From contig SLOD01000159.1 of assembly GCA_007132725.1 (NCBI GenBank), positions 1-37,490 on the forward strand: 37,490 nt of DNA, given 5' to 3'. The DNA comes from Candidatus Sumerlaeota bacterium (lineage in GTDB: Bacteria; UBP6; UBA1177). This document shows, in pieces, positions 5,168 through 27,709 of this stretch (positions are counted from its first letter, which is position 1; the number at the start of each line of letters is the position of its first letter). The notes under the pieces were generated by a model. That model was not told the DNA's origin. It searched no databases and saw only the letters and a list, made by a program, of their open reading frames with translations. The translations under genes and the position numbers were made by a program.

Positions 5168-6406
5168 ATGGTCAAAGCAAAAACAATTCGGGGAGACCGA
5201 TTGCATATAGCGTTTTTCGGAAGAAGGAATGTCGGGAAATCATCTCTTATCAATGCTCTTACCAAACAACAGGTATCCATTGTTTCAGAGGTGCCCGGTA
5301 CTACGACAGACCCTGTATTCAAATCCATGGAACTGGCTCCTGTGGGACCTGTGGTCATTGTTGATACTGCCGGAATGGACGATCTGTTCAATGACTTAGG
5401 CGGAGAAAGGATCAAAAGGTCGGAAAGAATACTTTCTAAAACAGATATCGGGATCATTGTCATAGATTCGTCAGGAAAAGCAGGTGAGTTCGAAGAGAGA
5501 CTCATAAAGCTCTTAGAAAAAAATAACAGCTCGGTAATAATTGTTCTTAACAAAACAGATGCCGGCATTTCAGAAAATGTTTCTCAATGGGTAGAAAATA
5601 AAGATGTTATAAAAGTAAGTGCAAAAGAACTTAAAGGGATCGAAGATATAAAAACCCGTATTATTGAGATAGCTCCTCCTGAGTGGGAACCTCCATTTTT
5701 AAATGATCTGGTCAAAAAAGGGGAGACGGTGCTTCTTGTAATACCGATAGACACCGGAGCTCCCAAAGGAAGACTCATAATGCCTCAGGTAAAAGCATTG
5801 AGAGATGCTCTTGATGGCCATGCTGTTGCTTTAATGTGCAAAGAAAGTGAGCTTGAACAGGCCCTTGGTGCTTTAAAAAAGCCTCCTGCTCTTGTTGTCA
5901 TTGATTCCCAGGTGTTTGCTCTTGTTGCAGCTAAGATACCGGAAAGTGTGCTACTTACTTCGTTTTCTATTCTTTCTATCAGACAGAAAGGAGACCTTAA
6001 TGAAATGGTCAATGGGGTTTTAGCCGTTAAAGAGCTTAAGCCGGGGGACAGGATATTAATTGCCGAAAGCTGTTCGCATCATCCACTGGAAGATGATATA
6101 GGAAGGATAAAGATCCCTAAATGGCTCAATGAATTTGCCGGAGGAGATTTAATAATTGATACTGTACCCGGATGCGAATATCCTGACGATATTTCAAACT
6201 ACAGTCTTGTCGTGCACTGTGGAGCATGCACTTTGAATAGAAAAGAGATGCTTCGGAGACAGTCTATCCCTGCCCAAGCTGAAGTTCCCATGACCAATTA
6301 CGGAGTTTTGATAAGTTATCTTCACGGGGTATTCCCAAGAGCTCTCAAACCTTTCCCCGAAATATACTCCCTTTTTGGAAAGTATACCGATAATTCAGAT
6401 AAATAA
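5168..6406 (+). CDS. hydF: [FeFe]-hydrogenase H-cluster maturation GTPase HydF
   Basis: G1 GRRNVGKSSLINAL, DTAGMDD, NKTDAG; C-terminal CxH (SCSHHPLEDDIGRIKIP) and HCGAC cluster motifs typical of HydF. Confidence 0.93.
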   Translation: MVKAKTIRGDRLHIAFFGRRNVGKSSLINALTKQQVSIVSEVPGTTTDPVFKSMELAPVGPVVIVDTAGMDDLFNDLGGERIKRSERILSKTDIGIIVIDSSGKAGEFEERLIKLLEKNNSSVIIVLNKTDAGISENVSQWVENKDVIKVSAKELKGIEDIKTRIIEIAPPEWEPPFLNDLVKKGETVLLVIPIDTGAPKGRLIMPQVKALRDALDGHAVALMCKESELEQALGALKKPPALVVIDSQVFALVAAKIPESVLLTSFSILSIRQKGDLNEMVNGVLAVKELKPGDRILIAESCSHHPLEDDIGRIKIPKWLNEFAGGDLIIDTVPGCEYPDDISNYSLVVHCGACTLNRKEMLRRQSIPAQAEVPMTNYGVLISYLHGVFPRALKPFPEIYSLFGKYTDNSDK

Positions 6407-6426
6407 TAGTCATTTAGGAGAAAAAG

Positions 6427-7536
6427 GTGGTCCGTCCGGAAATTAAGAGAATTGTAATTGATCCCGGGGTTAAAGATGCAAATATGGCACTTTCGATAGC
6501 CTCAGGTCTTTCAATTGCACCGGAATTTATGTCAAAAGAGGAACTAATTGAAGATATAAGGGGAAATAGCGGAAAAGATTTTTTTAAAACAGCTAAAAAA
6601 ACATTGTTTTTCACAAAAAACAAAGGAAATTTCCTCAAAAAGTGTCCGGGAAGCAGAGGAGTAGTATGTTGTGACTACTACACTCTGAACAGTGTCACCG
6701 GATGCCCCTATGACTGTTCATACTGCATACTTCAGCACTACATTGAAAACAATCCTTTTACAACCGTTTTTTTAAACAGGGAAAAAGCAGTTGATGAAAT
6801 AGAAAAGTTCCTTAAAAAGAGCAGAAAAATCAGAGTTGGAACAGGGGAGCTTGCCGATTCACTTGCCCTTGATCATCTACTTGATGAAACCGGCTTTTTT
6901 TTAAGTGAAATTGAAAATAGAGGTCTGAGTGAAAAAGTTCAGTTCGAATTCAAAACTAAATCCGCTGAAATTAATAACTTTATTGAAAAATATAGAAGAC
7001 ATCGTTCTGTTGAAACAATTGCAGCCTTTTCAGTGAACATTCCTCTTTTTCAGCAAAATGAGGAGCATGGCTCCGCAACTGTTGAAGAGAGGATCCGCTC
7101 AGCAAAGCAGCTTTCCAAAGAAGGGATCAAAATATCGATACATTTTGATCCGGTGTTGATGCTGGATGAGCTTTTTGAAAGTTATATGGAGCTTATAGAT
7201 CAAGTTTTTGGCACACTTGACTGTTCAAAGATAGTCTGGATAAGCATGGGCGGATTCAGGCATACCCTTTCTCTCACATCTACGATACGGGAAAGATGGC
7301 CGGAAAGTCTTCTGCTGAAAGGTGAAATGTTCCCTTCAAAGTCAGACAACAAACTCAGATACCTTGCAACATCAAGGAGAAAGTTCTATAAAGCTTTTAT
7401 CGGGAGAATAGGTGGATACTTCAATGGAAAACCTCCTCTGTATATGTGTATGGAAAAGCCGTTTATGTGGGCGGACTTAAAATTGCCGCTAATAAAAGAA
7501 GTTTTTCCAAAAGGTAAAAATTGTCTTTTAAAATAA
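6427..7536 (+). CDS. Spore-photoproduct-lyase-like (SplB family) radical SAM protein
   Basis: GTG start; radical SAM CX3CX2C (CPYDCSYC) in the SPL-like context TGCPYDCSYCILQHYIENNPFTTVFLN; C-terminal LYMCMEKPFMWADL. Confidence 0.8.
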   Translation: MVRPEIKRIVIDPGVKDANMALSIASGLSIAPEFMSKEELIEDIRGNSGKDFFKTAKKTLFFTKNKGNFLKKCPGSRGVVCCDYYTLNSVTGCPYDCSYCILQHYIENNPFTTVFLNREKAVDEIEKFLKKSRKIRVGTGELADSLALDHLLDETGFFLSEIENRGLSEKVQFEFKTKSAEINNFIEKYRRHRSVETIAAFSVNIPLFQQNEEHGSATVEERIRSAKQLSKEGIKISIHFDPVLMLDELFESYMELIDQVFGTLDCSKIVWISMGGFRHTLSLTSTIRERWPESLLLKGEMFPSKSDNKLRYLATSRRKFYKAFIGRIGGYFNGKPPLYMCMEKPFMWADLKLPLIKEVFPKGKNCLLK

Positions 7537-9069: not shown

Positions 9070-9120
9070 AAGCAGAGATGATGTATGTTTGATAAAAGGT
9101 CTTGTCAGGGAGGAAAAAAA

Positions 9121-10497
9121 ATGAAAATCAATAGAAATATTTTCCGTCAGTATGATGTAAGAGGAATTGTCGGCTCAGATCTCACTGAAGATTTTGCCTA
9201 TAACCTTGCCAGAGGATGTGCCACATACTTTAAAAGAGAAGTTCCTGAACTTAAAAAGGTGAGTATCGGTCATGATGCAAGAGAAAGCTCACCTCTGTTT
9301 GCCGATGCTTTGATAAAAGGATTCAATGACAGCGGTATAGATACGGTTTTTCTTGGAATGGTACCTACCGGCCTGCTTTACTACTCAATGTTCAACCTTG
9401 ATGTGCAGGGTGCCGTTATGATAACGGGCAGCCACAATCCTCCTGAATATAATGGCTTTAAAATCAACCTCGTCGATCTTCCTGTTTATGGTGACGGAAT
9501 TCAGAAAATTGCCGATATAATGGAAAATGATGAGTTCAGAGGATCTTCAACAAGAGGGACAAACTCAAAATATGATATTATTCCCGATTTTCAAAAATAC
9601 GCTCTTGATAACATCAGGATAGAAAATCCCGGAAAATTAAAGATAGTTGTTGACTCAGGTAACGGGGTAGGAGGATTTGTTGCAGTACCTCTTCTTAAAC
9701 AGATGGGAGTCAATGTCATCAGTCTTTATGAAGAACCTGACGGAACTTTTCCCAACCATCATCCCGATCCGACAGTCGAAGAATATATTCAGGACATGAT
9801 AAAAACTGTCAAAGAAACCGGAGCTGACATGGGTATAGGCTATGACGGAGATGCTGACAGGATCGGTCTTGTTGACAGGAACGGAAAAATAATCTGGGGA
9901 GATAAAGTTCTTACTATTTTTGCAAGAGATATTCTTAAAGAAGTTCCGGGAGCAACTATAGTTGGCGAAGTAAAATGCAGCAAAACTTTTTACGATGATG
10001 TCAGACAAAGGGGCGGTAAAGGGATAATGTGGAAAGCGGGACACTCTCTTATAAAAGCCAAAATGAAAGAAGTTGGAGCTGCTTTCGGGGGAGAAATGAG
10101 CGGCCATGTTTTCTTCAAACACCGTTTTTTCGGTTATGACTGTGCTATTTATGGGACACTGCGGCTTCTTGAGATAGTGTCAAGGATGGATAAAGTTGAC
10201 TTTGACAAGCTTCTTGAAGGTATTCCTGAAACCTTTTCAACGCCTGAGATAAGACTTGAGGTAGATGATGTTAAAAAATTTGAAATAGTTGAAAAAGTTG
10301 TCAATTATTTCAAGGAAAAGGGGGAAGATGTCGTAGATATTGACGGTGTCAGGGTCACCTTCAGTGATGGGTGGGGGTTGATGAGACCGAGCAATACCCA
10401 GAATGTCATTGTGCTGAGAGTTGAAGCTGATACTCCCGAAAGAATGGAAGAGATAAAACAGACGCTTCTACAAAAACTGGATGAATATAATAAATAA
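9121..10497 (+). CDS. Phosphomannomutase/phosphoglucomutase (alpha-D-phosphohexomutase)
   Basis: ITGSHNPPEYNGFK, GYDGDADRIG, GGEMSGH motifs. ATG 9121 has the RBS gggagg; the ORF-track start 9085 is probably too early. Confidence 0.9.
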   Translation: MKINRNIFRQYDVRGIVGSDLTEDFAYNLARGCATYFKREVPELKKVSIGHDARESSPLFADALIKGFNDSGIDTVFLGMVPTGLLYYSMFNLDVQGAVMITGSHNPPEYNGFKINLVDLPVYGDGIQKIADIMENDEFRGSSTRGTNSKYDIIPDFQKYALDNIRIENPGKLKIVVDSGNGVGGFVAVPLLKQMGVNVISLYEEPDGTFPNHHPDPTVEEYIQDMIKTVKETGADMGIGYDGDADRIGLVDRNGKIIWGDKVLTIFARDILKEVPGATIVGEVKCSKTFYDDVRQRGGKGIMWKAGHSLIKAKMKEVGAAFGGEMSGHVFFKHRFFGYDCAIYGTLRLLEIVSRMDKVDFDKLLEGIPETFSTPEIRLEVDDVKKFEIVEKVVNYFKEKGEDVVDIDGVRVTFSDGWGLMRPSNTQNVIVLRVEADTPERMEEIKQTLLQKLDEYNK

Positions 10498-10509: not shown

Positions 10510-11760
10510 ATGTCCAAAGCTCTAGTAATGATCCTCGCCGGTGGTCAGGGAAAAAGACTTGAACCGCTGACTCTTGACAGAGCAAAACCTGCCGTTCCTT
10601 TTGCCGGAACTTACAGGATAATTGATTTTGTTTTAAGTAATTTTGTAAATTCCGGTTTTATGCAGATCAAAGTGCTGACCCAGTTTATGAGCAACTCACT
10701 TAATCAGCATATTGCAAGGAACTGGAGTTTAGCCCAAATTTTCAATCAGTATGTTGACAGCGTCCCTGCCCAGATGAGAACCGGAAATAACTGGTATCTT
10801 GGCAGTGCCGATGCTATATTCCAAAATCTAAACCTTATTAAAGATGAAAGACCTAAAGATGTTTTTGTTTTCAGTGGAGACCATATCTATAAAATGGACA
10901 CCTATCAGATGTACAGCTATCATCAAATAAAAGATGCTGATATGACAATAGCGGCCATCCCTGTTCCCATAGAAGAGGCGAGTGCTTTCGGAGTCATTGA
11001 AATAGATAAAGATTACAGAATGATAGGATTTGAAGAAAAGCCTGCCAAACCTAAATGCATCCCGGGAAAACCGGATACTGCTCTTGTCAGTATGGGCAAT
11101 TATCTTTTTAAAACTGAAATACTGGTAAATGCTGTAACAGAAGATGCAAAAGATGAATCGAGTGTCCACGATTTCGGAAAAAATGTGATTCCGGCACTTT
11201 ATCCCTATAAAAAAGTATATGTCTATGATTTCCTTAAAAACAGTATTTACATGCCGGAAGAAGATGATTATGAAAAACCTTACTGGAGAGATGTAGGAAC
11301 TATCAAAAGCTATTTTGAAGCTCACTTGGATCTTGTTTCAGTTTCTCCATCCATTAATCTTTATAACCGCAACTGGCCTATTTTCGGTTTTCCTGAAGTA
11401 AATATGCCGCCGGCTAAATTTGTTTTTGCCGATAATAAAAATAAACGGCTTGGCGTTGCCACAGACTCTATTATTTCTGAAGGATGCATAATAAGTGGAG
11501 GAAATGTGAACCTTTCAATTCTTTCTCCCGGGGTAAGGGTCAACAGCTATGCTGCCGTAAAGAAGTCGGTACTTCTTAACAATGTCAGTGTCGGCAGATA
11601 TTGCGAGTTGAAAAATGTTATTGTCGACAAAAATGTTTCCATACCTCCTGATACAAAAATAGGATTTGACAGAAAAAAAGATGTTGAAAGGGGGTTTACT
11701 GTAACAGAAGACGGAATAGTAGTTATTCCTAAAGATTTCAGTTTTGAGGAGGGACGATGA
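10510..11760 (+). CDS. glgC: Glucose-1-phosphate adenylyltransferase
   Basis: MILAGGQGKRLEPLTLDRAKPAVPFAGTYRIIDFVLSN, FSGDHIYKMDY-type motif, YWRDVGTI; C-terminal left-handed beta-helix. Confidence 0.94.
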   Translation: MSKALVMILAGGQGKRLEPLTLDRAKPAVPFAGTYRIIDFVLSNFVNSGFMQIKVLTQFMSNSLNQHIARNWSLAQIFNQYVDSVPAQMRTGNNWYLGSADAIFQNLNLIKDERPKDVFVFSGDHIYKMDTYQMYSYHQIKDADMTIAAIPVPIEEASAFGVIEIDKDYRMIGFEEKPAKPKCIPGKPDTALVSMGNYLFKTEILVNAVTEDAKDESSVHDFGKNVIPALYPYKKVYVYDFLKNSIYMPEEDDYEKPYWRDVGTIKSYFEAHLDLVSVSPSINLYNRNWPIFGFPEVNMPPAKFVFADNKNKRLGVATDSIISEGCIISGGNVNLSILSPGVRVNSYAAVKKSVLLNNVSVGRYCELKNVIVDKNVSIPPDTKIGFDRKKDVERGFTVTEDGIVVIPKDFSFEEGR

Positions 11761-13940
11761 GTAAAACCCGAATAGTTTTCCTTTGGCACATGCATCAGCC
11801 TTACTACAAAGATGCCGGGAAAGATATATACCTCATGCCATGGGTCAGGCTGCATTCTCTTAAAGGGTATTATGATATGCCCCTTGTTATGGAAAAATTT
11901 AAAATAAAAGGGGTACTTAATGTTGTTCCTTCTTTGATAGAACAGATAATTGATTATACAGAAAATAATGCTTCGGATCCATGGCTTGACCATACTGTGT
12001 ATGATCCAAATGAAATGGATGAGGATAAAAAAGGGTTCCTTGTCAAAAACTTTTTCATGCTTCATTGGGACAGACTTGTAAAAACTTCCCCAAGATACTA
12101 TGAACTGTTGAAGAAGCGTATAAGGTATGAGAAAAAACTTAACTGGAATGAAATGGGGATACTTTTTACTGCTGATGAACTTTTCGATCTACAGGTACTT
12201 TTTAATTTGAAGTGGTTCGGGTTTATGGCAAGAGAAAAATATCCTGAATTAAAAGCTCTTGATCAAAAAGACAGGAATTTTACTAAAGAAGATAAAGAAG
12301 TTGTCCTTGAAACAATGAAAAAAGTGATGGGAGAGATAGTTCCTCTTTATAAAAGATTAAGCGAAGAAGGTTCCCTCGAGCTCAGTTTTACCCCTTTTTA
12401 TCATCCGATACTTCCTCTTGTAATAGATTCCGATATATCTTCAAGGAGTTCAGGAGCTCCATTGCCAAGCAAGTTTACTTATCCGGAAGATGCTTTGTGG
12501 CACATAAGTGAAGGAAAAAAATATTGTGAAAATTTATGGGGGCATATTGTTGACGGCATGTGGCCATCTGAAGGAAGTGTTTCTCCGGAAATAATTCCCC
12601 TGGCTGTTCAGTCGGGAGTTAAATGGATCGCCAGTGACGAAGGGGTTCTTATGAATTCACTGGGGACATCGGATAAATCTACAGTTCTTTACCGTCCATA
12701 CAGACTTAAAAGTGGAGAAGGGTCGCATGTTGCCGGTTTTTTCAGGGACAAGTATCTGTCAGATCTGCTCGGTTTTTCGTTTTCAAGAATGGAACCCCGG
12801 AAAGCTGTGGACATTTTTATGCATTATGTAAGGAGTGTAAACCACAACCTTCCTCAAGGACATCCGGATCCTGTAGTATCTGTAATTCTGGATGGAGAAA
12901 ATGCCTGGGAATCTTATCCTGAAAACGGGAAACTTTTTCTGGAAGAATTTTTTGGAAGACTTGTTGATAATCCTGATGTAGAGGCAACAACTTTTTCCAA
13001 AGTGCTTGAATCTGAAGATGTTGAGCTCATGCAGCCCATTTCGAGAATTTTTTCAGGTTCATGGATTAACAGCAACTATGAGATATGGATAGGAAATGAA
13101 GAAGATAACACGGCCTGGGAATATTTAAAAAGAGTAAGAGATTTTTACGAAAAGTATAAAGCTGAAAACGATGTTGACCCTCAAGTTGACAAAGATGTTA
13201 TGCTGAGCCTCTACAGAGCAGAAGGAAGTGACTGGTTCTGGTGGTACGGACCACAGTTTTCTACCGAGAACGACTGGCTTTTTGACAGGCTTTTCAGAAG
13301 ACACCTGAGAAGAGTCTATTATCTGCTTGGAGAAGAATATCCCTCTTTTCTTGATATCCCCATAAGTGCATCTTCAGGAGTAAGTGTCAACATACAGCCT
13401 GCAAATCTTATAAATCCTTCTATTTCAGGAAAAAATGAAAGTTACTACGAGTGGTCGGGAGCGGGGGTGTATGAAAATATAAAAAGGTCAGGGGAGGCAA
13501 TGTACAACTCCATACGCATGGTTGATATGCTGTTTTACGGATTTGACAGAAATGCTCTTTTCTTTAAACTTCAACTTGTGGGGCCATTAAGTTTTTACGA
13601 ACACAGAAAATACACGCTCAAAGGTTTTATAACTAATGATAATGACCTTGATTTTTCTCTTCCTGTTATAAAGATGCCCCCTACAGATTTTTCTGTCCGC
13701 TCTAACAATGAGGAAGGATTCCTTATGGAAATTGTAGGGGCCGGTTCAGCAGCTTTTGATGAAATACTTGAAATGAAAATAGATTCTTTCAAGGCCGGTC
13801 TCAAGCCCGGGGAAAGAATAGGGGTATATTTTAAAATTATTTCTTCTGACGGGATAGAGCTTGAAAGGGTTCCTTCTACCGGTTCGATCGAGTTGCTGAT
13901 CCCTGATGAAAAGACACTTTATACCTTTTGGGATGTTTAA
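11757..13940 (+). CDS. Glycoside hydrolase family 57 protein (amylase/branching-type)
   Basis: FLWHMHQPYYKD N-terminal GH57 motif, WIASDEGVL (nucleophile region), LDGENAWESY; ATGA overlap with glgC. Confidence 0.88.
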   Translation: MSKTRIVFLWHMHQPYYKDAGKDIYLMPWVRLHSLKGYYDMPLVMEKFKIKGVLNVVPSLIEQIIDYTENNASDPWLDHTVYDPNEMDEDKKGFLVKNFFMLHWDRLVKTSPRYYELLKKRIRYEKKLNWNEMGILFTADELFDLQVLFNLKWFGFMAREKYPELKALDQKDRNFTKEDKEVVLETMKKVMGEIVPLYKRLSEEGSLELSFTPFYHPILPLVIDSDISSRSSGAPLPSKFTYPEDALWHISEGKKYCENLWGHIVDGMWPSEGSVSPEIIPLAVQSGVKWIASDEGVLMNSLGTSDKSTVLYRPYRLKSGEGSHVAGFFRDKYLSDLLGFSFSRMEPRKAVDIFMHYVRSVNHNLPQGHPDPVVSVILDGENAWESYPENGKLFLEEFFGRLVDNPDVEATTFSKVLESEDVELMQPISRIFSGSWINSNYEIWIGNEEDNTAWEYLKRVRDFYEKYKAENDVDPQVDKDVMLSLYRAEGSDWFWWYGPQFSTENDWLFDRLFRRHLRRVYYLLGEEYPSFLDIPISASSGVSVNIQPANLINPSISGKNESYYEWSGAGVYENIKRSGEAMYNSIRMVDMLFYGFDRNALFFKLQLVGPLSFYEHRKYTLKGFITNDNDLDFSLPVIKMPPTDFSVRSNNEEGFLMEIVGAGSAAFDEILEMKIDSFKAGLKPGERIGVYFKIISSDGIELERVPSTGSIELLIPDEKTLYTFWDV

Positions 13941-13960: not shown

Positions 13961-14977
13961 ATGATAAAAGGATGCTTAAGACGCGATCCATTAAATAAGT
14001 ACTGGGTGATATTTGCTCCGGAAAAAGTAAGTACCATTATAAAACAAAGTTCGGAACAGGAAGCAGATTTTGATCTCAATCCCTATGCTCCGGGATTTGA
14101 GTTTGCTACAGGACGGGACATCTTAAGGAAGATAAACCCAGCCTATGCCGACCAGAACTGGTCTGTAAGAGTTTTTCCCGCTAAAAAACCTGTTTTGCTG
14201 ATAGAGAGCGAAGTCAACTTTAAAGGGAAAGGGCTTTATGATGTAATGGAAAGGCTGGGAGCACATGAAGTGGTCGTTGAAACGCCCAGACAGAACATAT
14301 ACTTTGATCAACTCTCTATAGAAGAGATAGCGGATGTTTTAAATGTTGTAAGAGAGAGGATAGGGGATCTTAAAAAAGATACAAGATTCAGGTATGTTAT
14401 GGTCAGTAAAAACAGAGGTCTCGCTGCTGGAGGCACTATAAATCATAATTACAGTGAAATCAAAGCATATCCTTTTGTTCCTCCATTGGTTCAAGCAAGA
14501 ATAGACAATGCTGTGGCATATTACAACCTTAAAGAAAGGTGTCTGCTTTGTGATATAGTTGATCAGGAACTTGAATCGAAAGAAAGAATAGTAGCAAAAA
14601 ATGATTTTTTTGTAGCTTTTTGTCCTTATGCAAGCAGGTTTCCCTTTGAAATAATGATCTCTCCCAGGAAACACGGGTCAGTTTTTAATACGGCACTATC
14701 TGACTTTGATATTGACAAAGAACTTGCCAAAATATTAAGACTGGTTCTTTTAAAGATCCGTAAAGCACTTAAAGCTCCGGCATACAACTGTGTATTTCAT
14801 TATCCTCCTGTCAACTCAGGTGAAAAAGAGCTTATCGAATCAAAAGCTTTACACTGGTATATAAGTATCATTCCAAAAATTACCAATATGATGTCCGATG
14901 CTTTGGAAGGGGGAGTTTACACCAACCCGACACTTCCAGAGGAAGCAGCTGAATTTCTTAAGAATATTATTGAATAG
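13961..14977 (+). CDS. GalT-fold (galactose-1-phosphate uridylyltransferase-like) protein with degenerate active site
   Basis: RRDPLNKYWVIFAPEK, RYVMVSKNRGLAAGGTINHNYSEI, CLLCDIVDQE, FPFEIMISPRKHGSVFN, TNPTLPEEAAEFL give the GalT family scaffold. Canonical catalytic/metal motifs are substituted (see findings). Confidence 0.78.
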   Translation: MIKGCLRRDPLNKYWVIFAPEKVSTIIKQSSEQEADFDLNPYAPGFEFATGRDILRKINPAYADQNWSVRVFPAKKPVLLIESEVNFKGKGLYDVMERLGAHEVVVETPRQNIYFDQLSIEEIADVLNVVRERIGDLKKDTRFRYVMVSKNRGLAAGGTINHNYSEIKAYPFVPPLVQARIDNAVAYYNLKERCLLCDIVDQELESKERIVAKNDFFVAFCPYASRFPFEIMISPRKHGSVFNTALSDFDIDKELAKILRLVLLKIRKALKAPAYNCVFHYPPVNSGEKELIESKALHWYISIIPKITNMMSDALEGGVYTNPTLPEEAAEFLKNIIE

Positions 14978-14998: not shown

Positions 14999-17900
14999 TC
15001 AACGGGTTTCTTTAAGAAGCACTTTGACAGCTTTTTCTATTTGAGGATCTTTTCCCAAGGTTAATTCTTCAGGGGTTATATTGACAAGGTAATCGGGTTC
15101 GAGTTGTTTGTTTTCAAGATACTCTCCTTCAAGATCTTTTATTCCGATCTGCGGTATTCCAAAATACATTGTTTCATCAAGCATGAATGGCCACCAGACC
15201 GCTGTAGAAGTCCCGGGGACAGGCATCCCCACTATTTTGCCAAGTTCAAGTGTTCTGTAGGCATAGGGGAAAAGATGAGCATCGCTGTAATTTCCTTCAT
15301 TTACAACGAGGATGCTTTTTTTCGTCCATTGATTGTTGGGGTCACCTCCAAAATTTTTTACACCCCGATGGGAATAACGGGTATAACTCCTTCCTCCAAA
15401 AAGTATGGAAAGTTCGTTGTGAAGCCATCCTCCGCCATTGAATCTTGTGTCAATGACAATTCCTTCTCTGTCGTTATATCTGCCAAGGATATCATTATAA
15501 ACCTCTCTGAAACTTGCCTGGTTCATCCCTCTTATGTGAACATAGCCGAGTCTGTTATCTGAAAGTTCATCAACTTTTTTTCTGTTCCTTTCCACCCACC
15601 TGTCATACATCAGGTCATATTCAGCCCTGTAACCCACAGGTTTAACTACTTCTTCCCATCTATCTATTCCGGCTGGAGATCTCAAAGAAAGCCTGACATT
15701 TCTCCCTACTTTTCTGTTGAGAAGTTTGTTCATATCTTTTTCTGCGGTTGAAACACCGTCTATTTTTTCAATAATAACACCCGGCTTTATTCTGCTGGCA
15801 GCTCTATCAAGAGGGGAGCCGGGAATGATTTCTTCTACGGTCACTCCTTTATCTGATACCGAATAGAAAATACCGAGTCTTCCGGTAGCATCTCCCATAC
15901 TTGCTCTGTGAATGTATCCGCTTCCGGTATGAGAAACATTAAGCTCGCCTAACATTTCAGAAAGCATCTCCGTGAAGTCATAGTTGTTGTTAATATGAGG
16001 AATAAAGTGAATATATTCATTATAATACTTTTCCCATTCAGTATCATGCATCTCTTTTATATAGAACTTGTCATTTACTGTTTTCCAGACATGATCGAAC
16101 AGATAGAGTTTTTCATCTTTATCAACTACGGAAAATTCTGCGGAGAGATTTACCGGCACTCTTTTACCGTCACCTGCAGTTATCTTTGAAATTCTTCGAT
16201 CAGCCAATACATATAATGTTGAGCCTGACTTGTCAAGAAGCAGCTGGAAGTTAGGTCGCTCCCACCAGGGTCTGTTCCCTGATCGGGGTATTGAAGCAAT
16301 GTTTTTTTCTTTTTTTTCTCTGATAGAAACAGAAGTTATTTTATATTCTGTAGGATCCATGGTAAGCAAGTATAGAGTTTCATCATCATCTGAAAAGGCA
16401 TAGTCAAGAACATTGGCAGGATTTACAGAAAGTTTGACGATTCTGGAATCCATTCTTTCTTTTTCAAATACAACGGGTTCTGGCGGTTCTTTTTTGTCGG
16501 AACTGTCATCACCTTCACTGTTGTTTTTTTCTGACTTTTCTTTCTCTCTTCTTTTTTGTAAAAGGTCATATTCTTCTTTAGAAAGGTTGAATTCATCAAA
16601 ACCCTCTTTATTTAGAAAAAAACCGTGTATTTCATTCTGGACGAACCACGATATGAATTGCCCTTTGTCACTCCATTTAGGCTTGGACTCATTTGCACCG
16701 GTATTTGTAATATTTACCACTTCTCCTTTCCCGTCGCTGTTCACTATCCCGATCTCTCCGCTCCAAAGGTCCCTGTCGAGGAATTTGACTGCGAGTTTAG
16801 AACTGTCAGGAGACCAGAAATATTCCTGATCTCCGTCAACATACGATATGTTCCTGTCGCCATCAAGAACTGTTACATGTGTTTTCCGCTCAATGTTGTA
16901 AACTACAAGTTCAGTTCTTTCTCTCAGGTATGCTATTTTTGTACCGTCCGGAGAATATGTCGGTTGAAAAGTGTTTGAGCTGTTTTCAATAACCGGCCTT
17001 TCAACAAGTTTTGTTGATGCAAAGAAGTACAGTTCACTTTTGTCGGCCATTTCAGTTTCGTAAATATTCCACGATCCGTTCCTGAAAGAAGAGTAAAGTA
17101 TTTTTTTTCCATCAGGATGAAAACTGACCCACCTTTCTTCGTTTGGAGTTTCTGTTATTCTTTTTGTAGTTCCTGTCTCCGGATTTACGGCATAGATCTC
17201 ACCTCTGAGAACCGCCACGATCTCCTTTCCATCGGGGCTTACAGCGAACTCACTTATATTATTCAGCATTTCTCTTGAAACAGCCGTCACTCTCTCTCCA
17301 GGGACATAAACATCCAGTTTTTCGGGTTTTTTATTTTCTTTAAGTGTATATATTTGTCCATGGTATGAAAAACAGAGTGTCCCGTTGTTACTTATCGAAA
17401 GGAACCTGACAGGATGTTTGTCAAAAAATGTTATTTGTGATTTCTTTCCTTCTTCGTCCATTTTCCACACATTAAAAGTTCCGCTTCTTTCGCTTAAAAA
17501 GTATATTGATCTTTCATCGGGACTGAATACAGGTGACCTGTCTTCTCCTTCAAAGTCAGTAAGTTTAGAAAAATTACCGGCTTCTTTGTTATATTCCCAA
17601 ATATCTCTGGTGACACTCGATCTATGGTGTTTCCGCCACTCGTTCTCGTATCCTTTTTTATCGTGATATATAAATCTTTTTCCATCTCTGCTGATACTCA
17701 GATCAAAGACGGGAACAGTTACCTCAAGTAGAGCGTTGCCACCTTCGATCCCCACAGAATAGAGTTGAGGCATTCCTCTTGATGGAAAAACAGAACTGTC
17801 TCTACCCGGCATTCTTGCCGAGGAAAAATATATTTTCTTCCCGTCATTTGAAAAAGCAAGAGGATGGTCATTAGCAGAGTGAAATGTGAGTCTTTTTGCT

Positions 17901-18304
17901 TTCCCTCCATTTACAGAAATCAAAAAAATGTCGTGATTTCCATGTCTGTCACTTAAAAAAGCTATTTCAGAACTGTCAGGGGACCACACAGGTCTTGACT
18001 CGAAGCTTTCAGAAGAGGTGAGAGCTCTTGCAAATCCACCGTCAACAGAAGTAATGTAAATATTCCCCATATATGAAAAAGCGATCTCTTTTCCATCGGG
18101 AGATATAAAAGGGTATCTGATCCAGTCAAGAAGGTTTTTGTCTGTGAGAGAATGATCGGACAGTTTTTCCAGTTGAGAAGCTGTTATCCTTGGTTCTTTT
18201 TTAATTTCCGTTTCTTTGGTCGTTTCAGCTCTATCAGGAAGCAGTTTCTCACAGGAAATAAAAAATAAAACCCCTGAAAATAAAAACACTAACCATTTTT
18301 TCAT
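14999..18304 (-). CDS. Tricorn-protease-like S41 peptidase, lipoprotein (beta-propellers + PDZ + S41)
   Basis: FSGVLFFISC lipobox; repeated PD40/TolB-like blades (SPDGKEIAF, SPDSSEIAF, SPDERSIYF); GELNVSHTGSGY, PDZ-like LGIFYSVSDKGVTVEEIIPGSPLD, NEGNYSDAHLFPYAYRTLELGKIVG. Confidence 0.88.
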   Translation of the reverse strand: MKKWLVFLFSGVLFFISCEKLLPDRAETTKETEIKKEPRITASQLEKLSDHSLTDKNLLDWIRYPFISPDGKEIAFSYMGNIYITSVDGGFARALTSSESFESRPVWSPDSSEIAFLSDRHGNHDIFLISVNGGKAKRLTFHSANDHPLAFSNDGKKIYFSSARMPGRDSSVFPSRGMPQLYSVGIEGGNALLEVTVPVFDLSISRDGKRFIYHDKKGYENEWRKHHRSSVTRDIWEYNKEAGNFSKLTDFEGEDRSPVFSPDERSIYFLSERSGTFNVWKMDEEGKKSQITFFDKHPVRFLSISNNGTLCFSYHGQIYTLKENKKPEKLDVYVPGERVTAVSREMLNNISEFAVSPDGKEIVAVLRGEIYAVNPETGTTKRITETPNEERWVSFHPDGKKILYSSFRNGSWNIYETEMADKSELYFFASTKLVERPVIENSSNTFQPTYSPDGTKIAYLRERTELVVYNIERKTHVTVLDGDRNISYVDGDQEYFWSPDSSKLAVKFLDRDLWSGEIGIVNSDGKGEVVNITNTGANESKPKWSDKGQFISWFVQNEIHGFFLNKEGFDEFNLSKEEYDLLQKRREKEKSEKNNSEGDDSSDKKEPPEPVVFEKERMDSRIVKLSVNPANVLDYAFSDDDETLYLLTMDPTEYKITSVSIREKKEKNIASIPRSGNRPWWERPNFQLLLDKSGSTLYVLADRRISKITAGDGKRVPVNLSAEFSVVDKDEKLYLFDHVWKTVNDKFYIKEMHDTEWEKYYNEYIHFIPHINNNYDFTEMLSEMLGELNVSHTGSGYIHRASMGDATGRLGIFYSVSDKGVTVEEIIPGSPLDRAASRIKPGVIIEKIDGVSTAEKDMNKLLNRKVGRNVRLSLRSPAGIDRWEEVVKPVGYRAEYDLMYDRWVERNRKKVDELSDNRLGYVHIRGMNQASFREVYNDILGRYNDREGIVIDTRFNGGGWLHNELSILFGGRSYTRYSHRGVKNFGGDPNNQWTKKSILVVNEGNYSDAHLFPYAYRTLELGKIVGMPVPGTSTAVWWPFMLDETMYFGIPQIGIKDLEGEYLENKQLEPDYLVNITPEELTLGKDPQIEKAVKVLLKETR

Positions 18305-24394: not shown

Positions 24395-25381
24395 TCATAA
24401 CCAGTTGTTTTCTCTGTACCATTTCACGGTCTCTTCCATACCTTCTTTTAAAGAGTAAGAAGGTTCCCAACCTGTTGATTTTAGCAGATAATTGGAGCAT
24501 ATCCAGTTATCCTGCTTCATTTCTATAATTTTCTGAAAATTTAAAAGAGCAGGTTTTTTAGTTAACTTTGCAGTTAATTCAGAAAAAAATGCAACGGGAA
24601 ATGCAGTCATTTCCGGCAACTTAAGATTCAGATATCGGTTTTTCCCCATTGCTGAAGCTATTGCCGAGAAAAGTTCATCCCAACTGTAGTGATCATCGGA
24701 GCAGGCAAAATAAGTTGCCCCCTCAGGTTTAACTTTTTGAGCAAGATGACAGATCGCATTTACCAAGTCTTTAACATAAATGATAGAAAGTCTTTTTTCT
24801 TTAAAGCCCATAATAAAAGCAATGTTCTTTTTTATCAGTTTAAAACAGGCGAAAATATCTTTTTCTTTCGGCCCGAAAACAGAAGGAGGTCTTATTATGG
24901 TGAACTTGTTGTCGTTGTTTTTCCCCCATTCAACAACTTCTTTTTCGGCGGCAAGCTTGCTTTTCCCATACCATGTCAAAGGGTTAGGGTCGTCGGTTTC
25001 AACAACCGGTCTATCAGGCCGGGCAGCAGGTCCGGCCGCAGCCTGAGAACTTATAAAGATAAAACGGATGTTTTTGCCGTTACATGCGTCAAGAAGATTT
25101 TTCGTATATTCGGCATTGACTCGAAACATCTCTTTTTCAGTTAAAGTTTTAGTGGCTCCTGCTACATGTATAACGGTGTCAACACCTTCAACTGCTTCAT
25201 TAAGCAGTGGTTTGCTGCCCAATTCTCCTGTCAAAATTTCCGCCCCCGATTTTTCGAGTTTGGAAAACAGGGGAATTTGCCTTCTTGTAAAGATCTTAAC
25301 TTTATTCCGGTCATTAATAAGTTTTTCAGCAAGGTGCTGCCCTATAAAGCCGGTTGCTCCGGTTAGAAAGATATTGTTCAT
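24395..25381 (-). CDS. NAD-dependent epimerase/dehydratase (extended SDR); candidate ceramide-pathway reductase
   Basis: [35 protein letters not shown] (YxxxK). Confidence 0.88.
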
Positions 25382-25386
25382 GGTGA

Positions 25387-26517
25387 TTATCCGGTAATAT
25401 TTTTCTCTAATATCACATATTTGTTCAGGGGTTTCGCTCCCATCCTGTTCAATACGGATGTCATTAAAGAATTGTGGTCAAGAATCCATCCCATTTCAAC
25501 ATGTTTGTAGTTTTCTGTTTGAAGACCGTCATTGAATATTTCATCGTACATTAAAAAATCAAGCCCCGTTTTTCGGAATTTTGATTTAACCCCCATAATT
25601 ATTACTCTGAAAGAAGATAGTTTGTTTTTTTTCGACAAAAAATCATATAAAAAGCAAGGGGTTGCTCTGCCATGTCTGTATTTTGATACTATTTCGTTCA
25701 AGTTCGGGATAGCCACAAGACAGGCTGCCGGCTCACCGTTTTTATAGGCAAAATAAATAATTCTCGGGTCTGCAAACATTTTTAAACTTTTGATGAGCTC
25801 TTCTATTTCAAGCTTTGTCATAGGGGTAAAACCCCAGTTGTCCGACCAGGCATCATTATAGATATCAAGAATTATCTCAGCTTCTTTTTCGAGATTTTTC
25901 ATATCAACTTTGCGTATATCCACATCTCCTATCCTGTTTCTGATCCTTTGTGACATCTTTGAAACTATTTCCGGTGTCTCTGTAACATTTTCCATAACAA
26001 AAGACAACAATGTGCATGCTGTTCCATACCCCAGTTTTTCAAAAATAGGAGGATAATAAGACTTGGTGTAGGGCATCATGACGGTCGGTTTTCTATCAAA
26101 GCCTTCTATTTGGAATCCACACTCATCGTTAATGTTGAAATTAAAAGGTCCTATGGAAGAAGAACAACCCCTCTCTTTAAGCCAATATTCAGCTTTCTCC
26201 AGAAGAACTTCAGCTATTTTGATATCGTTCAGAGATTCGTAAAACCCGAAAAAACCTTTTGAGTTGTTCTGATTCTCATTGTAAACAGGATCAACTTGAG
26301 CAGTTATTCTGCCGACAGGCTTTCCGTCATTATATGCAACAAAAAACTCAGCTTCACAGTTTCTTAAAAATGCCCCTTTTTTTTTGTTTAACTTTTCTTT
26401 CATAACTGCTCTGACAGGAGCAACCCAGTTTTTATCGTTCCTGTAAAGGGAGTAGGGTAGTTCAAGAAAATCTTTCATTCCTTTACGGAAGTTGGAAACT
26501 GCCCTAACTGACAGCAT
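25387..26517 (-). CDS. GNAT-like acyltransferase of the family often beside SPT-like enzymes; candidate bacterial ceramide synthase
   Basis: LPYSLYRNDKNWVAPVRAVMKEKLNKKKGAFLRNCEAEFFVAYNDGKPVGRI; GFFGFYESLND; GPFNFNINDECG. Confidence 0.7.
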   Translation of the reverse strand: MLSVRAVSNFRKGMKDFLELPYSLYRNDKNWVAPVRAVMKEKLNKKKGAFLRNCEAEFFVAYNDGKPVGRITAQVDPVYNENQNNSKGFFGFYESLNDIKIAEVLLEKAEYWLKERGCSSSIGPFNFNINDECGFQIEGFDRKPTVMMPYTKSYYPPIFEKLGYGTACTLLSFVMENVTETPEIVSKMSQRIRNRIGDVDIRKVDMKNLEKEAEIILDIYNDAWSDNWGFTPMTKLEIEELIKSLKMFADPRIIYFAYKNGEPAACLVAIPNLNEIVSKYRHGRATPCFLYDFLSKKNKLSSFRVIIMGVKSKFRKTGLDFLMYDEIFNDGLQTENYKHVEMGWILDHNSLMTSVLNRMGAKPLNKYVILEKNITG

Positions 26518-27709
26518 TTAAGACACCAAGATTCATTATGTTGGCTCTTATTTTATCGAGAGCATAGTCTATCTGCTCAAAAGTATGAGAGGACATAAGG
26601 CTTATTCTGATAAGGGCTTTGTCCTTGGGAACAGCAGGGAAAATGACAGGATTAACAAAAACACCATCTCTTTCAAGATTTTTACATAACATGAAAGCGT
26701 TTTCATCTTTTCCTATAAAAACAGGCATGATAGGAGTTTCAGAAAGTCCTGTGTCAAGACCTATTCTTTTGAGACCGTTCCTCATTCTCTCAGAGTTTTC
26801 CCACAGTTTTGTTATCCTTTCCGGCTCTCTTTGTAAAATTTTAAGAGATGCCATTGCAGATGCAGTAGAAGCGGGGGTTATACTTGCACTGAATATTAAT
26901 GACCTGCTATGATGTCTTAAAAACTCGATCGTTTTGAAATCTGAAGCAACAAATCCTCCGATAGTGGCAAGAGATTTGCTGAAAGTCCCCATTATCAGCT
27001 CAACATCATCCGTCAGGCCGAAATAATCGGCCGTTCCTTTGCCTGCTTTGCCAAGAACACCTACCCCATGAGCATCATCAAGCATAATGGCGGCATTATA
27101 TTTTTTAGCGAGATCAACAAGCTCGGGAAGGTTTATAACGTCTCCATCCATACTGAAAACCCCGTCACTTACGATAAGTTTTCCTTTTTCGTAGGGGTAA
27201 ACAGAAAGTTTGGACTCAAGGTCTTGCATATTGTTATGTTTGAACTTTACCGTATGGGCAAAAGAAAGTTTGGCTGCATCTATCAGAGATGCGTGATTCA
27301 GTTGATCCATGAAAAGGATATCGTGTCTTCCGGTGAGAGCGGATATTACCCCCTGGTTAACCATAAATCCGGTAGGATAAAGAAGAGCTTCTTCTTTGCC
27401 TATGAATTTTGCAAGTTCATGTTCAAGTTCTTTGTGTATATCGAGCGTCCCATTCAAAAAAGGAGATCCGGCACAGCCTGTACCATATTTTTCCACTGCT
27501 TTTATTGCAGCTTCTTTGACTTCGGGATGACTGGCAAGCCCCAGATAACAGTTCGAGCCGAGCATAATAACTCTTCCATCATCCTTTAGGTCAACTTCTG
27601 TATCCTGTTCAGATGTAATTTCTCTGAAATAAGGGTATATACCGTTTTTTTTGGCAATGATAGACCGATCGTAACGATCAGCTTTTGTAAAGATAGATAA
27701 GTTTCTCAT
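26504..27709 (-). CDS. PLP-dependent alpha-oxoamine synthase (serine palmitoyltransferase/KBL-like)
   Basis: GSNCYLGLASHPEVKEAA, GSPFLNGTLDIHKELEHELA, LDDAHGVGVLG, GTFSKSLATIGGF (PLP lysine). Confidence 0.88.
   Translation of the reverse strand: MRNLSIFTKADRYDRSIIAKKNGIYPYFREITSEQDTEVDLKDDGRVIMLGSNCYLGLASHPEVKEAAIKAVEKYGTGCAGSPFLNGTLDIHKELEHELAKFIGKEEALLYPTGFMVNQGVISALTGRHDILFMDQLNHASLIDAAKLSFAHTVKFKHNNMQDLESKLSVYPYEKGKLIVSDGVFSMDGDVINLPELVDLAKKYNAAIMLDDAHGVGVLGKAGKGTADYFGLTDDVELIMGTFSKSLATIGGFVASDFKTIEFLRHHSRSLIFSASITPASTASAMASLKILQREPERITKLWENSERMRNGLKRIGLDTGLSETPIMPVFIGKDENAFMLCKNLERDGVFVNPVIFPAVPKDKALIRISLMSSHTFEQIDYALDKIRANIMNLGVLNAVS

Follow-up and report, generated by a model that had tools for sequence, protein, structure and literature searches.

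Tyrosine replaces the nucleophilic histidine of a GalT-fold protein in one order of candidate phylum UBP6: a possible non-catalytic regulator of NDP-glucose supply

GalT is a classic example of covalent catalysis, and nearly all of the relatives that we examined carry its nucleophilic His. In the E. coli structures, residues R28, N77, H166 and Q168 hold the nucleotide and the phosphates. Attack on the alpha-phosphate is carried out in the GalT family by the second His of the HxHxQ motif, which is H166 in E. coli and H186 in the human enzyme (PMC5081055). Human GALT carrying His186Gly, and similarly His186Ala, was found solely in the apo form, and the Q188R (Gln188Arg) protein was uridylylated to only about 8%, compared with 81% for the wild type (PMC5081055). 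Among solved structures, the Arabidopsis ADP-glucose phosphorylase At5g18200 is the nearest to the protein described here, both by sequence (E 3e-47) and by fold. The nearest bacterial family, represented by our canonical loci (L040 to L110), is glycogen-linked, with glgA adjacent in 35 of 71 loci and GH57 in 16 of 71; no paper on its function was found in the open literature.

We analyzed a 37,490-nucleotide stretch of DNA, referred to here as the window, from a Candidatus Sumerlaeota bacterium whose genome belongs to candidate phylum UBP6. The window encodes a GalT-like protein whose nucleophile position is occupied by Tyr (GalT-Y; Table 1). The reading frame is unbroken over all of its codons, as an earlier note on this DNA had stated. 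Both GalT domains passed their Pfam cut-offs, PF01087 with 28.5 bits (cut-off, 22.1) and PF02744 with 34.6 bits (cut-off, 29.2). In the NCBIfam galT_1 equivalog TIGR00209, the protein reached 87.9 bits and failed the cut-off of 102.1, compared with passing scores of 120 to 126 bits for canonical proteins of a UBP6 sister lineage. The AF2 model had a pLDDT of 92.5 and a pTM of 0.91, and the best Foldseek match in the PDB was the Arabidopsis enzyme (1zwj; E 8e-31, TM 0.82/0.92). By its predicted fold, the protein is a relative of GalT and ADP-glucose phosphorylase. By its active site, it lacks the features that define either enzyme and should not be annotated as galT, a label which would wrongly give Leloir chemistry to these UBP6 genomes.

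Table 1. Positions in the window of the GalT-Y gene, its altered or retained sites, and the genes of the same operon
Feature	Positions	Strand	Basis
GalT-Y, a GalT-like protein of 338 aa	13961..14977	+	ORF; PF01087 and PF02744 above cut-off; AF2; Foldseek
H162-N163-Y164-S165-E166 in place of HxHSQ (Tyr164 codon 14450-14452; Glu166 codon 14456-14458)	14444..14458	+	Alignment; laboratory mutants 2h39 and 6k9z
Lys22 for conserved Arg (E. coli R28); fixed in clade	14024..14026	+	Alignment, site census
Ala74 for conserved Asn (E. coli N77); fixed in clade	14180..14182	+	Alignment, site census
Arg98 for invariant Gly; fixed in clade	14252..14254	+	Alignment, site census
Gly158 for conserved Ala; fixed in clade	14432..14434	+	Alignment, site census
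Hexose-side loop, residues 312-316: SDALE in place of the GFEWG of canonical relatives; released, variable in clade	14894..14908	+	Alignment, site census
N40-P-Y-A-P-G45, former zinc-site-1 CPFCPG; ligands lost in f1 and f2, retained in f3	14078..14095	+	Alignment
C194-x-x-C197, second zinc site, with H238 (14672-14674) and H298 (14852-14854); invariant in clade	14540..14551	+	Alignment including Arabidopsis 1z84
Phosphoglucomutase/phosphomannomutase, same operon	9085..10497	+	Profile match
GlgC, glucose-1-phosphate adenylyltransferase, same operon	10510..11760	+	TIGR02091 above cut-off
GH57 family protein, same operon	11757..13940	+	Profile match; adjacency conserved

In the nucleophile motif, GGTINHNYSEI stands where relatives have AGASLEHPHSQL. 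The second, nucleophilic His of the motif is replaced by Tyr164, and the phosphate-stabilizing Gln two residues later is replaced by Glu166. The earlier note had described the HPHSQ/HPHGQ motif as lost; this is correct for the nucleophilic His, but the first His of the motif (His162) is retained. The register was set by two deposited laboratory mutants at this very residue, 2h39 (His to Gly, Arabidopsis) and 6k9z (His to Phe, of the archaeal 6k5z), both of which align to Tyr164.

Tyr164 and Glu166 were fixed in all readable orthologues of one order of UBP6, comprising families f1, f2 and f3 (44 to 81% identity), so that the Tyr and Glu of the HNYSE motif singled out earlier proved to be invariant across a whole clade. 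A DNA pattern for the Tyr motif matched 23 of 386 genomes, every one within this order, and the same pattern with His matched 65 of 192 genomes, none of which belonged to it. Canonical HxHSQ was present in the other UBP6 lineage (f4; three genomes, G025 to G027) and in nearly all of the about 70 nearest proteins, which came from Acidobacteriota, Myxococcota, Nitrospirota, Planctomycetota, Elusimicrobiota and others. The exceptions among relatives from other phyla had exchanged the nucleophilic His for Asn or Arg; Tyr was never seen. In the tree, the Tyr proteins formed a single group (support, 100/100) on a long stem (0.66), and this group did not cluster with the canonical proteins of its own phylum. 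The Tyr clade may therefore have arisen either by vertical change or by early replacement, which the tree does not separate. Each UBP6 genome with a match contained one GalT-family gene. Our search of the open literature, which takes in only a minority of subscription journals, turned up no earlier account of a GalT that has Tyr in place of the nucleophile and is both fixed throughout a clade and present in single copy, nor anything on GalT-family pseudoenzymes, Tyr nucleophiles or glycogen-linked GalT.

The change extends well beyond the nucleophile. When the 114 sites conserved in the canonical family were compared with nine Tyr-clade representatives from the three families, 64 were retained, 22 were released, and 6 were replaced and re-fixed, namely, R22K, N74A, G98R, A158G, H164Y and Q166E. 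In the alignment, the R22, N74, H164 and Q166 sites correspond to E. coli R28, N77, H166 and Q168; our grouping of all six residues in one pocket is based on this alignment and on what is known of the E. coli enzyme. The released sites include the second Arg (R25; E. coli R31), a Cys of the first zinc site, and the hexose-side loop GFEWG, which is lost and unalike between f1, f2 and f3. Since the released sites vary where constraint has dropped, they provide an internal control against plain drift, and the six fixed sites are probably under selection. Several of these changes had been overlooked earlier: R28 to K, R31 to T and N77 to A (E. coli numbers), as well as G98R and the loss of the GFEWG loop.

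The nucleophile is also missing from three other proteins, two from Omnitrophota (L085 and L101; His to Arg) and one from Nitrospinota (L065; His to Asn). All three retain both Arg residues, both zinc sites, the Gln and the GFEWG/GFELG loop. Since the active site is otherwise almost intact in these cases of His loss, the UBP6 pattern amounts to a rewrite rather than a simple knock-out. The Omnitrophota genes occur in tandem (L085:1338-3145 and L101:6958-8987), the upstream copy carrying KHSRSQ or KHSRTQ with a one-residue insertion and the downstream copy being intact, which makes a catalytic/non-catalytic pair possible. The Nitrospinota gene (L065:7992-8987) adjoins glgA and has HSNSQ in an otherwise largely intact active site.

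The earlier note had also pointed to NPYAPGFE in place of CPFCPGxE and, near the C terminus, to LHWYISI in place of HWH. The N-terminal zinc site, and only this one (C40, C43 and H111), is indeed lost, but its loss does not hold as a sign of lost chemistry. The N-terminal zinc site is likewise absent in working human GALT (PMC5081055), and its loss alone is thus uninformative on activity. Family f3 retains the first zinc site yet has Tyr, so that the nucleophile was probably lost before the zinc in the Tyr clade. Zinc loss as proof of inactivity was therefore rejected on the basis of human GALT, the zinc-retaining f3 with Tyr, and L173 with His. The last of these (G043:C40:44800-46200) is a GalT homologue which lacks the ligands of both zinc sites and retains the YSHSQ nucleophile and both Arg residues, and it is a candidate for a naturally zinc-free protein. 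The supposed loss of HWH did not stand up: HWY occurs in the window protein, L015 and L022 only, HWH is the usual form among the orthologues, and HWF is found in the Arabidopsis enzyme, which rules out HWY as a lost motif. Neither the loss of the first zinc site nor that of HWH is diagnostic.

The GalT-Y gene is the last of a tight run, with the phosphohexomutase gene 12 bp upstream of glgC, a 4-bp overlap between glgC and GH57, and 20 bp between GH57 and the galT-like gene; the next gene lies on the opposite strand. GH57 precedes the galT-like gene in two genera of f1 (g1 and g4), in families f2 and f3, and in the canonical lineage f4; in the window, L031 and L036, this run also includes glgC and pgm. 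The Tyr gene of the rumen genus UBA1177 (g3) is found directly upstream of a gene for a GalU-type UTP--glucose-1-phosphate uridylyltransferase where both genes could be placed, at a distance of about 10 bp in near-complete cases, and glgC and GH57 are still together elsewhere in the genome; in the other lineages, it is galU that lies elsewhere. The constant neighbor is a gene making NDP-glucose from glucose-1-phosphate. The previously proposed glycogen link thus stands as a general association with glycogen and NDP-glucose, but it is not specific to glgC and GH57, since one genus pairs the gene with galU. Because the canonical gene also adjoins GH57 in the sister lineage, the operon position is partly inherited. 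While glgA was present in nearly all UBP6 genomes examined, galactokinase (TIGR00131) scored above the cut-off in only 1 of 28 genomes and was not found in the window genome (G000; 91% complete). With galK absent in nearly all genomes, an ordinary Leloir role is ruled out.

Three further loci in the window deserve mention. A Tricorn-like S41 protease with beta-propeller repeats (14999-18304, minus strand) is convergent with the GalT-like gene. A serine-palmitoyltransferase-like gene (NF047600, 581 bits, below the cut-off of 640), a GNAT-like protein and an NAD-epimerase stand in a row at 24395-27709 (minus strand), an arrangement, here in candidate phylum UBP6, that resembles a bacterial sphingolipid (spt-bcerS-cerR) operon. 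HydF, the [FeFe]-hydrogenase maturation GTPase (above cut-off), is followed by a spore-photoproduct-lyase-like radical SAM protein at 5168-7536 (plus strand).

Several explanations of the Tyr/Glu motif have to be weighed. That the gene is a decaying GalT pseudogene, or that the motif results from a sequencing error, is scarcely credible. The G003 copy, one of about 24 genomes, is frameshifted, and the ligands of zinc site 1 are gone in two families, but Tyr and Glu are fixed across three families, the other copies are open or cut by contig ends, with intact frames in the other readable genomes, and dN/dS was 0.03 to 0.15 in 49 pairs of Tyr-type genes. Such values signify strong constraint, in line with the purifying selection that the earlier reading implied, and together with the clade-wide fixation they rule out error or decay. 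In the frameshifted copy (L024, from a UBA1177 genome), a small deletion with a frameshift near codon 188 interrupts the gene, reflecting either an assembly error or a real loss. Nor is the protein a spare paralogue beside an intact GalT, since there is a single GalT-family gene per genome. It is also very improbable that the protein is an ordinary GalT with its catalytic residues elsewhere in the fold, a possibility which the earlier note had raised against its own reading. The fold is fully retained, as is the second zinc site, but no gap interrupts the alignment in the motif, the two solved nucleophile mutants confirm its register, the protein contains no other HxHxQ motif, and the known mechanism offers no second nucleophile. 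An essential catalytic residue has been lost in a fold retained under purifying selection, as expected of a pseudoenzyme. The earlier inference that the protein is a GalT fold kept without uridylyltransfer chemistry finds good support in the order-wide replacement of the nucleophile and Gln, the single copy and the strong purifying selection.

A different kind of enzyme is a serious though still unlikely alternative. Such a protein would act on a nucleotide or sugar phosphate by direct displacement or hydrolysis and would form no covalent intermediate; Glu166 would serve as the general base, and Lys22 and Arg98 would grip the phosphate. The strictly fixed polar set, the strong constraint on a single-copy gene and its retention after relocation beside galU in one genus would all be consistent with this. 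However, the loss of the hexose-side loop, unalike in the three families, would be odd for a sugar-phosphate enzyme, and we know of no member of the GalT family that works by direct displacement or hydrolysis. More doubtful is a nucleotidyltransferase in which Glu166 activates Tyr164 and a tyrosyl-nucleotide intermediate arises during the phosphorolysis or exchange of ADP-Glc or UDP-Glc. Tyr lies exactly at the nucleophile position and is invariant, and protein Tyr-nucleotidyl linkages do occur in nature, in adenylylated glutamine synthetase and VPg. On the other hand, five other conserved pocket residues are replaced, including the phosphate-stabilizing Gln and the first Arg, the second Arg is lost, and the literature that we searched yielded no GalT or HIT enzyme using Tyr. 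An active site re-invented around a Tyr nucleophile and Glu, and acting on NDP-glucose or another nucleotide from the neighboring GlgC or GalU, thus seems improbable.

We tentatively regard GalT-Y as a repurposed non-catalytic pseudo-GalT that regulates NDP-glucose supply, which is the most likely reading even if its chance falls somewhat short of even. Tyr took the place of the nucleophilic His, and Glu that of the Gln, in the common ancestor of one order of UBP6, accompanied by changes of Arg to Lys, Asn to Ala, Gly to Arg and Ala to Gly at other conserved positions; the new set has since stayed constant, whereas the hexose loop and first zinc site drifted. GalT-Y would then no longer form the nucleotidyl-histidine intermediate. 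Its altered pocket may sense a nucleotide, NDP-glucose or glucose-1-phosphate, and the ligand-bound protein might adjust a partner glucose-1-phosphate nucleotidylyltransferase, which would be GlgC or, in UBA1177, GalU. This regulatory reading draws on the fixation of Tyr and Glu, the single copy, the dN/dS values, the 6 re-fixed versus 22 released sites, and the NDP-glucose-forming neighbors in two arrangements. With the hexose loop and the conserved Asn gone, NDP-glucose is less likely to be sensed in its canonical pose. A catalyst would be equally well served by the invariant Y/E/K/R set of polar pocket residues, and the absence of a fixed neighbor (glgC in most lineages, galU in one genus) likewise seems to weigh against a regulator. 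An order-wide single copy without the nucleophilic His and with a coordinated, re-fixed pocket represents a natural experiment in the passage from an enzyme to a regulator or a new enzyme. It poses the concrete question of whether NDP-glucose synthesis in UBP6 is under pseudo-GalT control or whether nucleotidyl transfer can be Tyr based.

Compared with known systems, GalT-Y shares with Arabidopsis At5g18200 (1z84, 2h39) the fold, a similar length, the second zinc site and the HWx near the C terminus, but it lacks the nucleophilic His (residue 186), the Gln, the Arg pair, the first zinc site and the GFE loop of that enzyme. With E. coli and human GALT it has the fold in common (TM about 0.8) at an identity of only about 20%; these enzymes carry the nucleophilic His where the window protein has Tyr, and the window genome is without galactokinase. 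The bacterial glycogen-linked family, comprising the UBP6 sister lineage (G025 to G027) and the glgA- or GH57-adjacent genes of Myxococcota, Nitrospirota, Planctomycetota and Acidobacteriota, is about 36 to 42% identical to the window protein over its full length and partly has the same GH57 neighborhood, but it retains HxHSQ, the RR pair, Asn, the first zinc site and the GFEWG loop, which the window protein does not. The Omnitrophota (L085/L101) and Nitrospinota (L065) proteins belong to the same family and have lost the same residue, but, unlike the window protein, they keep nearly all other active-site residues intact. GalF is a GalU paralogue and does not have the GalT fold. It nevertheless offers a precedent, as an enzyme relative that regulates a glucose-1-phosphate nucleotidylyltransferase (NCBIfam TIGR01105, "GalU regulator GalF").
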